From: Bacteroidales bacterium | GTDB lineage: Bacteria; Bacteroidota; Bacteroidia; Bacteroidales; UBA932 | Assembly: GCA_016281435.1 (NCBI GenBank) | Contig: JAEEIQ010000028.1 | Coordinates: forward strand, 1 to 35,832 | Length of the DNA stretch: 35,832 bases | Direction of reading: 5' to 3' | Shown: positions 27,204 through 33,692 of the stretch, piece after piece | Layout of the letters: every line of letters starts with the position of its first letter | Position numbering within the stretch: the first letter of the stretch is position 1 | The notes under the pieces: generated by a model | What the model saw: the letters and a program-made list of their open reading frames with translations, nothing else | What the model was told of the DNA's origin: nothing | Databases searched by the model: none | Made by a program: the position numbers and the translations under genes

Positions 27204-27812
27204 ATGAAGAAAAAGAATTGCATCCTGAAGAAGCTGAACGACATCAGCAAGATCCACCAAAGGGCCGCTTTCACCGGAGTGGAACACGGTTTAGCCCTGA
27301 AGAAGAATCCGTTCCTCAAGCTGGCGGAAAGCCGGTACTCCTGCCGCGGCTTCGAAGGCAGGCCAGTCAGCCGGGCCGACATCGACGCCATCCTGGAGGC
27401 AGCCCGACTCGCCCCCACGGCCGTGAACAAGCAGCCCGTCCATGTCTGGGTGCTGCAGTCCGAGGAAGCTCTGGCCGCCCTGAAGGACGTGACGCCTTAC
27501 ACCTTCGACGCGCCCGTCGTCTTCGTCGTGGGCTGCAAGCCCGAGGACGCCTGGGTACGCAAATACGACGGCAAGAACGGCGCCGAGATAGACGCCGCGA
27601 TAGTCGGCACGCACATCATGCTGGAAGCCGCCGACCTCGGCCTCGGCACGACCTGGGTCGGATCCTTCGACCCCGCGAAGATGGCCGAACTCTTCCCCGC
27701 GATGCAGGGCTGGGTCCCCGTCGCCCTCTTCCCCGTCGGCATCCCCGCCGCCGCCCCCTCCGAGCGCCACTCCGTCCGGAAATCCCGCGAAGAATTGGTC
27801 AGCGAACTCTGA
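27204..27812 (+). CDS. Nitroreductase-family flavoprotein
   Basis: 202 residues. From residue 40 it is a nitroreductase: SRYSCRGF (the usual R-S-x-R FMN-phosphate contact), EAARLAPTAVNKQP, and a C-terminal GLGTTWVG loop. These FMN enzymes use NAD(P)H to reduce nitro compounds, quinones or flavins; the true substrate is unknown. The first 40 residues (KKKNCILKKLNDISKIHQRA) are an extension absent from most relatives, but no better ATG occurs before the fold. Divergent from deoD with 78 bases between. Confidence 0.88.
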   Translation: MKKKNCILKKLNDISKIHQRAAFTGVEHGLALKKNPFLKLAESRYSCRGFEGRPVSRADIDAILEAARLAPTAVNKQPVHVWVLQSEEALAALKDVTPYTFDAPVVFVVGCKPEDAWVRKYDGKNGAEIDAAIVGTHIMLEAADLGLGTTWVGSFDPAKMAELFPAMQGWVPVALFPVGIPAAAPSERHSVRKSREELVSEL

Positions 27813-29563: not shown

Positions 29564-29639
29564 TATAAAATATCTCGAATTCGTGAGAAAACTTGCCGAT
29601 AAACGCTATTTGTACTGATACCGTCGATAATGGACATAA

Positions 29640-31160
29640 TCACGCAATCAGCGAGATAATAAAGCGTACAAACGGCTCGATATCCTCCTCAACGCTTGCC
29701 TTTTCCAGACTGGCCATATATTCATCACGACGCTCCACCGGAACGACAATCCAGGGATAACCACCCGTCACCAATTGGCTGTTCATTGTGAAGCGAGCCG
29801 TACGTCCGTTGCCGTCCATATACGGATGGATGTAAACAAAGAAGAAATGTCCCAGGACTGCTCGGACAAAAGCATCCGGATCTTCCTGCATCAGGGTCGA
29901 CAGTGCTGTCATAGCATCCAGTACCGCATCCGGATTGAGCGGCACGTGCATCGAATTCCGTATATACACCTGATGCGTACGATATCCCACGAGGTCAGAA
30001 GCCTTGATGATGCCGGCACGGATGCAGGGCTCAAACAACTGGAAGTGCCAACTTTGATGACTCTTGACATACATCTGGGCCGGATCCTGTCCAGCAAGAG
30101 CATCTGCTACAGACTGTTTCATTAGTTGGTAGGCCTGGTAGTAACCGCGAGCCGCCAAGGCATTCTTGCGTTCCTTGTCCGCATCATCATTCTTGGGGTT
30201 CCAGTTACCGCTTCTTACCTTCTCCAGCAGGCCTTCCGTAATCTTGTAGCCCTCGATAGACAAGGAGTTGTAACTATCTTTTATATAGGTCGCATCCATC
30301 ATGGATAGAATGCTCTCCGCGTTTTGAGCCACAGGATGAATCCCAGCGACATCTATCGCCGACATCACTTTCGGACGCATCTTCATCCACATCAGTCGAA
30401 GACGGGAAGCATATGGTGATGGCTCAAAGTGTTCCAGGCGAACGTTTTCCTCGAACGGATTCTCCTCCCTGACCTGATATCCAACCTGTTTCATCATCGA
30501 TAGTAGCTGATCCGCCATTTCATCTCGGCCGATAGAGCGAAGGGCTCCGGCTACACGACCAGCCCGGGAGGTATATCCACCATCAATAGCGGCTGTGACA
30601 ACAGGAGTAACGTCTCGTAAAGACGCCAAACAGGTCCACGCTTCCAGCGCATTACGACGATAGTAGTCTGGACCTGACATCAATAGCGCATAGGCCAGCG
30701 GGTATAGGTGAACGCCATATTGGGATTCAACCTCAACAGACGGAGGAAGAGAAGCCTTAATATCTAGGAGCGACGTGCCGAACGGCAACTGTATGATATT
30801 GTTGGCTGCGGCATCACTACGAACAATCAGTTGTTGAGGCACAACGCTTTTACCGCTGTAGAAATATAGCGACAGTTCCGGAGACAGGCACCACTTATCA
30901 CCGAACTTACTGTTAAGATAGGCAACGATAAAATACCAATACGACACATACCACACAGTAGAATCTCCCTCGCTCCCAGGATAGCAAGGGATATACCACC
31001 CCTTGATGACCATCTTGAGATAGCCACTATCTACCAGCCGCTCCGTATGGGAGCGACCCAGAGTATCTGCGCCATGGATAACCAGATTCTCACCGTGTTT
31101 ATCCTGGTATTCTTTGAGAACGGCCAGTGACTCTGCCTGCTTCTCCTGAATGGTTGCCAT
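29640..31160 (-). CDS. Fic enzyme with an AbiEi-like DNA-binding N-terminus
   Basis: 506 residues. Residues 24-58 resemble the winged-helix start of AbiEi-type antitoxin/regulators (HTERLVDSGYLKMVIKGWYIP); the likeness continues to about 235 with a second, Arg-rich segment. Residues 290-500 are a Fic domain: HPYMDGNGRTAR (445-456) is a complete active-site motif, so AMP transfer or a related activity is expected, and SLSIEG (299-304) fits the inhibitory [S/T]xxxE[G/N] helix. The enzyme would thus be self-inhibited and possibly self-regulating through its operator array. Typical Fic proteins lack the first 280 residues. Codon use and base content differ from the core genes. Confidence 0.88.
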   Translation of the reverse strand: MATIQEKQAESLAVLKEYQDKHGENLVIHGADTLGRSHTERLVDSGYLKMVIKGWYIPCYPGSEGDSTVWYVSYWYFIVAYLNSKFGDKWCLSPELSLYFYSGKSVVPQQLIVRSDAAANNIIQLPFGTSLLDIKASLPPSVEVESQYGVHLYPLAYALLMSGPDYYRRNALEAWTCLASLRDVTPVVTAAIDGGYTSRAGRVAGALRSIGRDEMADQLLSMMKQVGYQVREENPFEENVRLEHFEPSPYASRLRLMWMKMRPKVMSAIDVAGIHPVAQNAESILSMMDATYIKDSYNSLSIEGYKITEGLLEKVRSGNWNPKNDDADKERKNALAARGYYQAYQLMKQSVADALAGQDPAQMYVKSHQSWHFQLFEPCIRAGIIKASDLVGYRTHQVYIRNSMHVPLNPDAVLDAMTALSTLMQEDPDAFVRAVLGHFFFVYIHPYMDGNGRTARFTMNSQLVTGGYPWIVVPVERRDEYMASLEKASVEEDIEPFVRFIISLIA

Positions 31161-31184
31161 ACTAGTCTAATTTAGTTAATTAGC

Positions 31185-31247
31185 ATTAGTTTATTTTGCA
31201 GAATAGTATTAGTTTATTTTGCAGTGCAACATTAGTTTACGATGCAA
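31185..31247. repeat. Operator-like array of three 17-bp repeats, period 23
   Basis: ATTAGTTTATTTTGCAG at 31185-31201 and 31208-31224, and ATTAGTTTACGATGCAA at 31231-31247, spaced exactly 23 bases. A fourth, ATTAGTTTATTTTGTCA, lies at 31350-31366 upstream of the promoter. The third copy overlaps the Fic gene's -7 box and the others fill its leader, as expected for a repressor's sites, probably the Fic protein's own N-terminus (inference). Confidence 0.85.
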
Positions 31248-31275
31248 AGATACAACAAAATAACTAACCGCCAAA
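31245..31275 (-). promoter_or_regulatory. Promoter of the Fic gene
   Basis: TTTG (31272-31275), 19 bases, TATCTTTG (31245-31252) on the minus strand: a near-perfect Bacteroidota promoter. Start near 31238, so the leader is about 78 bases and contains two of the repeats. Confidence 0.8.
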
Positions 31276-31396
31276 CAAATACACATATATCTCAGTAAAA
31301 AAACACTTACCACGAAAAGGTAACAAACATCGCAAAAAACGTCAAATTCATTAGTTTATTTTGTCATAGCCGGAGGTTTTGTTATGCCCGGATACG

Positions 31397-32248: not shown

Positions 32249-32587
32249 ATGGAAGAGAAAACATTGGTCATCGAGTATGAAGATGCTGAACTCGAGGCCC
32301 TCATTATAAAACACAAATGCAACGACAAGCGTTACCGCAAGCTAAAAGGGAACGCTTCCTTCTGGCGGGATTTGGATAAGGTTATGGATCTGCTCCGTAT
32401 CGCCCATAACACATCTGAACTCGTTTACTTCAAATCCTTGCACTACGAAAAGCTCAAGTACGACCGGAGCGGACAAAGCAGTGTGAGAATCGGTTACAAC
32501 ACTAAATACAGATTGATCTTCGAAGAATTCGATGGCGGAATTCGGATCAAGTTAATTGAAATTAATGAACATTATGGCGACAAATGA
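32249..32587 (+). CDS. higB: HigB-like toxin of the RelE superfamily
   Basis: 112 residues. The C-terminal part, with VRIGYNTKYRLIFEE and IEINEHYGDK, is that of HigB/RelE-type mRNA interferases, which cut mRNA on the ribosome. The central KLKG...FYW-like and LHYEKLK segments also fit. The toxin gene comes first, as usual for hig modules, and its last 14 bases overlap higA. Confidence 0.88.
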   Translation: MEEKTLVIEYEDAELEALIIKHKCNDKRYRKLKGNASFWRDLDKVMDLLRIAHNTSELVYFKSLHYEKLKYDRSGQSSVRIGYNTKYRLIFEEFDGGIRIKLIEINEHYGDK

Positions 32588-33692
32588 AACACACTCCACC
32601 CCTTTCAGGGCCGTTCATCCCGCCGAAATCATCAAAGATGAATTCAAGGCACGGGGAATGACCCAGAAGGAGCTTGCCGAGCGGATGGGAATGCAACCGT
32701 CCAACCTGTCCCGGCTGCTGAAGGGAGAGAACATCACAGCATCCATCGCCCAAAAATTGGAAGAAGCATTAGAAATCCCCGCCGATTTCTGGATGCGACT
32801 GCAAACGCAATATGACAAAGATGTAAAGTCTATTGCCGTTCGTGATGAGAAAGAGAAAGCAGCCATCAATGCTGAGAGTATGCTTTCCAGCATTTTGAAT
32901 CTCAGCGAACTTTACAAGCGCTTAAAGATAAGCGCCACTTTGTACATTCAAGAAAAGCTTGAGATTCTGAAACAGAACCTTGGTTTTGAGCCCCTTGACA
33001 TTAGAAGCCAGGGATTCGCACAGCAACGGAGCATCAGCTTTAAGAAGAGTGACAAATATGAGATAGACGAGAAGAACCAGACTACCTGGCTGACTCTTGC
33101 CTATATTGCATCTCGTGACAATAAGCCCAATGGTCGATTCACAGATGGCAATGCCAAGTTTGCTGCACAAGCCATTGCGCAAAGAGCACACGAAGGAGGA
33201 CTGAAAGAAGCTGAAATCAAACAACTTCTAAATCAGTACTGCATTGCTTATTCTGTTGTTCCCAAATTAGAGAAAACGCCCATTGATGCGGCGTCTATGG
33301 ATATGGGTGATTACCCCGCCATCATCACCACCCATCGGTACAACGATATGAGCAGACTCATTTTCAATGTGCTACATGAACTGGGGCACATTGAAAAGCA
33401 TATGTATGGAGAAGAAAAAGAAGTCTTTGTTTCCGGAGAGCCCTATTCTACCGACTCACCCAAAGAACGTGAAGCTAATGAATTTGCCCAGAGTATGCTT
33501 ATCAGCCAAAAGCTTTGGGATTCAATGATGAATAGCGGTCCCGTGAATGGTCTTCGTTTTGGGAACATTGTAACAAAGCTAAGAGATCTTTCAAAAGAAC
33601 ACAATCTGGATTTCAACATTGTAGTATGGCGCTGGAAATATGAAAGCCATATCTACAAACTCAAGGGAGCACGACCGATTCCCATCCAGTAG
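32574..33692 (+). CDS. higA: HigA antitoxin fused to an ImmA/IrrE-type zinc peptidase
   Basis: 372 residues. Residues 12-75 are a HigA/VapI helix-turn-helix (HPAEIIKDEF, TQKELAERMG, SNLSRLLKGE). From about 165 it resembles an ImmA/IrrE peptidase: HELGH (268-272) and EREANEFAQ (298-306) give the HExxH plus Glu zinc set. Most HigA proteins stop near 100 residues, so the peptidase could degrade the antitoxin or a partner on a signal, as ImmA does for ImmR; this is inference. Start choice: ATG at 32574, keeping the usual HigA opening; an ATG at 32565 is possible. Confidence 0.88.
   Translation: MATNETHSTPFRAVHPAEIIKDEFKARGMTQKELAERMGMQPSNLSRLLKGENITASIAQKLEEALEIPADFWMRLQTQYDKDVKSIAVRDEKEKAAINAESMLSSILNLSELYKRLKISATLYIQEKLEILKQNLGFEPLDIRSQGFAQQRSISFKKSDKYEIDEKNQTTWLTLAYIASRDNKPNGRFTDGNAKFAAQAIAQRAHEGGLKEAEIKQLLNQYCIAYSVVPKLEKTPIDAASMDMGDYPAIITTHRYNDMSRLIFNVLHELGHIEKHMYGEEKEVFVSGEPYSTDSPKEREANEFAQSMLISQKLWDSMMNSGPVNGLRFGNIVTKLRDLSKEHNLDFNIVVWRWKYESHIYKLKGARPIPIQ

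Follow-up and report, generated by a model that had tools for sequence, protein, structure and literature searches.

The minus strand of the window (the whole 35,832 nt stretch of DNA that was analysed) carries an intact gene for a 506 aa protein in which a predicted AbiEi-like module precedes a Fic enzyme, and a row of short direct repeats lies upstream of it. The features, all on the minus strand, are the following.

29640..31160, minus strand: CDS of the AbiEi-like/Fic fusion protein (506 aa), intact, ATG start
30972..31160, minus strand: predicted winged helix-turn-helix, the candidate DNA reader, residues 1–63 (AF2 model and PDB comparison)
30471..30968, minus strand: predicted nucleotidyltransferase-like domain as in AbiEi/Rv2827c/MenT, residues 65–230 (AF2 model and PDB comparison)
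29643..30416, minus strand: Fic part, residues 249–506, nearest solved structures FICD/HYPE
30249..30266, minus strand: inhibitory motif SLSIEG, S299–G304, N-terminal to the Fic core (the class II position)
29793..29828, minus strand: catalytic Fic motif HPYMDGNGRTAR, residues 445–456 (motif and alignment)
31161..31170, minus strand: repeat unit at -10, degenerate, TTAGACTAGT, 3 mismatches
31185..31194, minus strand: repeat unit ATAAACTAAT at -34
31208..31217, minus strand: repeat unit ATAAACTAAT at -57
31231..31240, minus strand: repeat unit GTAAACTAAT at -80
31245..31275, minus strand: putative Bacteroidota-type promoter TTTG-N19-TATCTTTG (pattern match)
31350..31359, minus strand: distal repeat unit ATAAACTAAT at -199, upstream of the promoter

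The promoter was recognised by a consensus that we take to be the Bacteroidota type. A previous, sequence-only reading had placed the fusion at 29640–31275; the coding sequence starts at 31160, and 31275 is the first base of the promoter.

Both hallmarks of class II Fic proteins are present, a complete HPx(x)DGNGRxxR-type motif and an (S/T)xxxE(G/N) motif N-terminal to the Fic core. Pfam PF02661 (Fic) matches residues 391–463 (E 1e-12). In an alignment of 73 rows, the catalytic His of HPYMDGNGRTAR is kept in all 66 rows with a residue at that position (7 gaps), and the remaining key positions of the motif deviate in only 1 or 2 of 67 rows. The inhibitory motif (S299xxxE303G304) sits at the end of a modelled helix (281–302), and SLSIEG is invariant in the 69 rows that have residues there (4 gaps). 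Both motifs had been picked out in the sequence-only reading, and the alignment bears them out. Among solved proteins, the nearest relative of the Fic part is FICD/HYPE, with a profile match (E 2.1e-26) over residues 264–503 that includes the inhibitory helix; FICD/HYPE is a eukaryotic ER enzyme with TPR repeats. Judged by these motifs, the fusion protein would be a class II Fic AMPylator, an assignment that forms part of the overall reading given below and shares its fairly good likelihood. Excerpts from one study describe class II Fic proteins as restrained by an inhibitory helix, and some of them as toxic or phage-protective (PMC12249575).

The N-terminal part (residues 1–265) was modelled by AlphaFold2 with a pLDDT of 92.5 and a pTM of 0.86. 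The predicted fold has the AbiEi-family layout, a winged helix (at about residues 1–63) and a nucleotidyltransferase-like C-terminal domain, and its top two Foldseek matches are AbiEi (6y8q, E 4.3e-3, prob 0.99) and Rv2827c (1zel, E 8e-3, prob 0.99), which are the two solved AbiEi-family antitoxins. An AbiEi-like N-terminus of 280 residues had been proposed from the sequence; the likeness holds for the predicted fold, while its extent shrinks to about residues 1–230. Comparison with AbiEi profiles, suggested at the same time as a check, gave no clear match. No Pfam family scored above cut-off in the N-terminus of the window protein, and a scan of 29 N-termini with Pfam and NCBIfam returned only weak and scattered matches, none to an AbiEi model. 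Pfam AbiEi_4 and AbiEi_1 each match just one of the 73 family members (E 0.075 and 0.096), and hhalign of the 29 N-termini against nine AbiEi_1 proteins gave a weak, collinear alignment, at 5.9% probability and with an E of 0.0063 in one pair. The proposed kinship to AbiEi is one of predicted structure, and sequence profiles by themselves do not show the module to belong to the AbiEi family. A search of the N-terminal profile against the PDB returned five chains (E 0.014 or worse), each either a designed alphaREP protein or fused to one, and these were discarded.

When the N-terminus alone was used as a query, 68 proteins of about 146–464 aa were found, carrying either PF02661 or no Pfam domain, and other named fusion partners were absent from them. 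Among the matches listed, 13 protein clusters (P0154–P0166; 393–396 aa, with PF02661) cover only 54–57% of the N-terminal query, and are shortened forms or split genes. A gene split near residue 324–338, into two frames or two contigs, is seen at two pairs of loci (L030/L034 in genome G091, L049/L051 in G459), where a frameshift, an insertion or a rearrangement may be the cause. With an AbiEi-like two-domain fold followed by a Fic domain that has its own inhibitory motif, the fusion called in the sequence-only reading is a real and widespread variant.

The three repeat units at -34, -57 and -80 (core ATAAACTAAT) follow one another in 23 bp steps and in the same direction just downstream of the promoter, which stops just ahead of the -80 unit. 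The window contains three exact copies of the core where 0.01 would be expected, each of them upstream of the Fic fusion gene. A genome of 2.0 Mb that carries a 92%-identical relative (G001) has four copies of the 13-mer AAAATAAACTAAT, all four in the promoter of the Fic fusion gene; allowing one mismatch adds one copy, equal to each reversed-pattern control. Inverted repeats of 23 bp, as in AbiEi promoters, are not present in the window promoter, which has direct repeats of 23–24 bp instead and only two short inverted pairs, 76 and 92 nt apart. These upstream repeats were absent from the sequence-only reading, and they are the strongest evidence for regulation.

The 200 bp upstream of 51 homologues were compared with themselves at each shift from 12 to 60; three duplicates or near-duplicates (L015, L045, L060) and two loci with no start codon near the expected place (L030, L034) were left out before counting, and loci where the match begins after residue 25 were not scored. 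The strongest self-repeat fell at 22–25 bp in 46 of the 51 homologues, which are not independent samples, and at 47–48 bp in three more. At 48 of the 51 loci, no more than 5% of 200 dinucleotide shuffles reached the 22–25 bp score, the exceptions being L031, L043 and L049. Among the 51, L031 and L036 have no array, and L043 and L049 do not rise above shuffles. A peak at 22–25 bp with a score of at least 13 was seen for 44/51 homologues versus 2/121 other ORFs of the same loci (13/121 at any score), and the two high-scoring controls, L027 and L030, are themselves Fic relatives. Another control, L003 at 305, reached 15 within 22–25 bp, yet its peak is at 18 bp, in a coding repeat. None of 11 Fic genes of other architectures peaks at 22–25 bp, two of them peaking at 46 and 48 bp with a score of 10 (22–25 bp scores of 7 and 4), although for several of the 11 the upstream 200 bp is mostly coding sequence of the preceding gene. 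As the homologues are related to one another, a binomial figure computed for this comparison is too confident.

The sequence of the repeat is specific to each clade (ATAAACTAAT, AAATTAGTG, AATAACAAAGTT, AAAACGTGT, TAAAAGCTAAA) while its period is constant, so recent common descent alone does not suffice as an explanation. Exact units are found on both sides of the promoter, in one direction, in the window and in L001, L002 and L003, and two pairs of units enclose it in L001 and L003. Four other loci (L004, L005, L039 and L040) have a single row, one unit per 24 bp. Units at -10 or -11 are also found in L001, L002, L004, L039 and L040, and reverse matches (up to 2 mismatches) are scattered at irregular spacing in L001, L002 and L005. 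By blastn (E <= 1e-5), the window aligns with the compared stretches of L001 (window 29609–31364), L002 (29645–31285) and L003 (29646–31364) only over the gene and its upstream block, so that array and gene seem to travel together. On the upstream side, alignment with L001 and L003 begins at 31364, just past the distal unit. L004 shares a 72%-identical stretch (L004:5088–5374) with a nitroreductase gene of the window (27390–27676); the surroundings of its Fic gene are otherwise unrelated.

The array is probably the operator of the Fic fusion gene. In excerpts from the literature, AbiEi has two 23 bp sites and Rv2827c four, arranged as inverted repeats at their own promoters (PMC7319586; PMC3985639). 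The repeat period found here equals that site size, with units placed head to tail without gaps; most simply, each unit would be occupied by a single AbiEi-like module that represses its own promoter. Control of its own expression by the regulator part had been suggested before the repeats were seen, and the phylogenetic footprint of upstream repeats of conserved period supports it.

We infer that the winged helix reads the repeats. Covariation between the winged helix and the repeat sequence (39 of the 51 loci) gave a partial r of 0.14 given the Fic part, 0.006 given the middle domain, and a value of 0.03 for distant pairs. It does not prove which part is the reader, because the repeat sequence tracks the winged helix no better than it does the Fic and middle domains; the covariation, mostly relatedness, was set aside as support. 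L027 is a counterpoint to the winged helix as reader. This Fic relative (L027, 1–260), whose match lacks residues 1–146 and with them the winged helix, still has 23 bp repeats upstream (TGTTCGAxGTTCAxCGGATT), which are either a remnant or read by something else.

Taken together, the locus is rather likely to encode a one-gene, self-repressing class II Fic enzyme that acts as a toxin-antitoxin-like accessory module. Monomers of the protein, one to each unit, would bind through the AbiEi-like N-terminus to the tandem direct repeats of 23–24 bp that surround the promoter of the gene, and keep transcription low. In whatever protein is made, the built-in inhibitory helix (S299xxxE303) would block the Fic active site. 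Some trigger would then lift the block, allowing the Fic part to AMPylate a bacterial target, which would probably halt growth, and the gene would act as a solitary module of plasmids and other accessory DNA.

The distribution of the gene bears on this last step. Of 8000 candidates scored in a protein search, 7985 matched at E <= 0.001, perhaps often through the Fic part only; the 120 matches listed, of the 7985, are 70–97% identical over 98–100% of the protein. Full-length relatives were found in Bacteroidota and Proteobacteria, often on plasmids, and of 158 matching plasmid records, 76 span 80% or more of the query. The p5482-type plasmids of Bacteroides, Parabacteroides and Phocaeicola carry a form with 49% identity, and forms of 37–45% identity are on plasmids of Novosphingobium, Roseobacter, Sulfitobacter, Mesorhizobium, Sinorhizobium, Agrobacterium, Variovorax and Vibrio. 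The survey of other Bacteroidota that the sequence-only reading had proposed finds the same fusion there, in a patchy pattern: matches at E <= 1e-60 occur in 19/395 genomes of the phylum and 13/299 of the family, counts that include partial genes and the centre genome G001. Phage records gave three matches, none full-length, and IMG/VR gave 106 pattern matches with four loci confirmed. On p5482 (L006:4415–5897), a RhuM-family gene (PADLOC PDC-S05, E 5e-133) and a recombinase gene lie just upstream of the Fic gene.

No gene for an AbiEii-type nucleotidyltransferase toxin was found among the seven neighbouring ORFs scanned in the window, which include the adjacent ones on both sides. Further along, at 32249–33692 on the plus strand, a HigB-like toxin gene (112 aa) precedes the gene of a HigA-type antitoxin (378 aa from its mechanical start), which has an IrrE/M78-like domain and matches PADLOC PD-Lambda-2_B (E 4.7e-27). 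Three rhizobial plasmids have the Fic fusion gene between traH and traM, and a fourth has it downstream of traH; on plasmids of Shinella and Vibrio it adjoins other transfer genes. Apart from these related rhizobial plasmids, no partner gene recurs in the loci examined. Plasmid carriage, transfer-region neighbours and the want of a recurring partner fit a stand-alone accessory module better than a defence device.

A defence role, which had been proposed from the sequence, is possible but weakly supported. It would make the gene a single-gene anti-phage system of the SoFic type, in which infection is sensed by, or displaces, the AbiEi-like part, and the Fic part brings about abortive infection. 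The PADLOC SoFic model matches residues 287–504 (E 4.3e-24), and SoFic is itself a class II Fic protein with an inhibitory helix and an extra domain, reported in excerpts as phage-protective (PMC12249575). The patchy spread, the PD-Lambda-2_B match of the HigA-like neighbour, and the helicase or RhuM genes with PADLOC matches near some plasmid relatives point the same way, but this support is generic. Against it, the SoFic and PDC-S24/S04 matches are confined to the Fic part: NCBIfam SoFic scores 27.4 bits against a cut-off of 550, and the PADLOC match spans only positions 52–259 of 361. In the excerpted descriptions, the extra domain of SoFic/EcSofic is C-terminal, unlike the N-terminal module here, and an AS1 antitoxin gene lies downstream (PMC12249575). 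None of seven neighbour proteins tested at L001–L005 matches a defence model at E <= 1e-10, and we consider this role unlikely.

Somewhat less likely again, the protein may be mainly a transcription factor for conjugation or plasmid genes, its Fic part serving as a signal input with auto-AMPylation tuning DNA binding. The tra and other transfer genes beside the rhizobial, Shinella and Vibrio relatives would suit such a role, as would the Yersinia pseudotuberculosis protein CccR, which alters expression of other genes according to an excerpted account (PMC9755527). However, all exact repeat copies of G001 fall in the gene's own promoter, and transfer genes are absent among the window neighbours scanned.

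A more speculative proposal, to which we give little credence, is that the antitoxin is the operator array, with Fic molecules kept inactive head to tail on the 23–24 bp repeats. Loss of the repeats, by plasmid loss or by destruction during infection, would free active Fic, and the agent of addiction would be DNA, in place of an antitoxin protein or RNA; a constant period with drifting sequence, and a gene without a recurring partner, would fit. Least probable is that the repeats act in the leader RNA, on translation or stability: three clear units and one degenerate unit do lie between promoter and start codon and the leader folds with a z of -1.88, but the window, L001, L002 and L003 also have distal units on the upstream side of the promoter, there is no Rfam match, and a winged helix is predicted.

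The favoured reading, a self-repressing Fic enzyme, has a counterpart in CccR, a Fic protein with a DNA-binding domain that, in excerpts from its description, acts as a repressor at its own promoter and AMPylates FtsZ (PMC9755527). CccR differs in having a C-terminal helix-turn-helix, 10 bp inverted repeats 26 bp apart, and a role as a secreted T6SS effector (PMC9755527). The present family seems to repress itself as CccR does, with another module at the opposite end and another kind of operator. AbiEi of S. agalactiae and Rv2827c/MenA4 are type IV toxin-antitoxin antitoxins that adjoin a nucleotidyltransferase toxin gene, whereas here the module is fused to Fic, its repeats are direct and tandem rather than inverted, and there is no convincing sequence-profile match. 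The 495 aa Fic proteins of pNL1 and Sphingorhabdus (L084, L085) also have an N-terminal extension, with a start that looks winged-helix-like by eye, but their Fic domain is mid-protein, identity is 30% over 92 Fic-core residues, and no upstream peak occurs at 22–25 bp. These two genes (L084:430–1917, L085:427–1914) possibly represent a second DNA-binder/Fic architecture. No description of the AbiEi-like/Fic fusion was found in open-licence PMC papers, a scope that most subscription papers fall outside, and the fusion with its direct-repeat array of conserved period is apparently a variant new to the literature.

Class II Fic proteins are common, and what controls them is called almost wholly obscure in the excerpted source (PMC9755527). 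In this family, a likely regulator is built into the Fic protein and its putative DNA sites are legible in the genome, so that control of expression, control of the enzyme and any coupling between them could be tested with one gene and a short promoter. It would also be a case of an AbiEi-like module away from its usual toxin partner, working on direct rather than inverted repeats.
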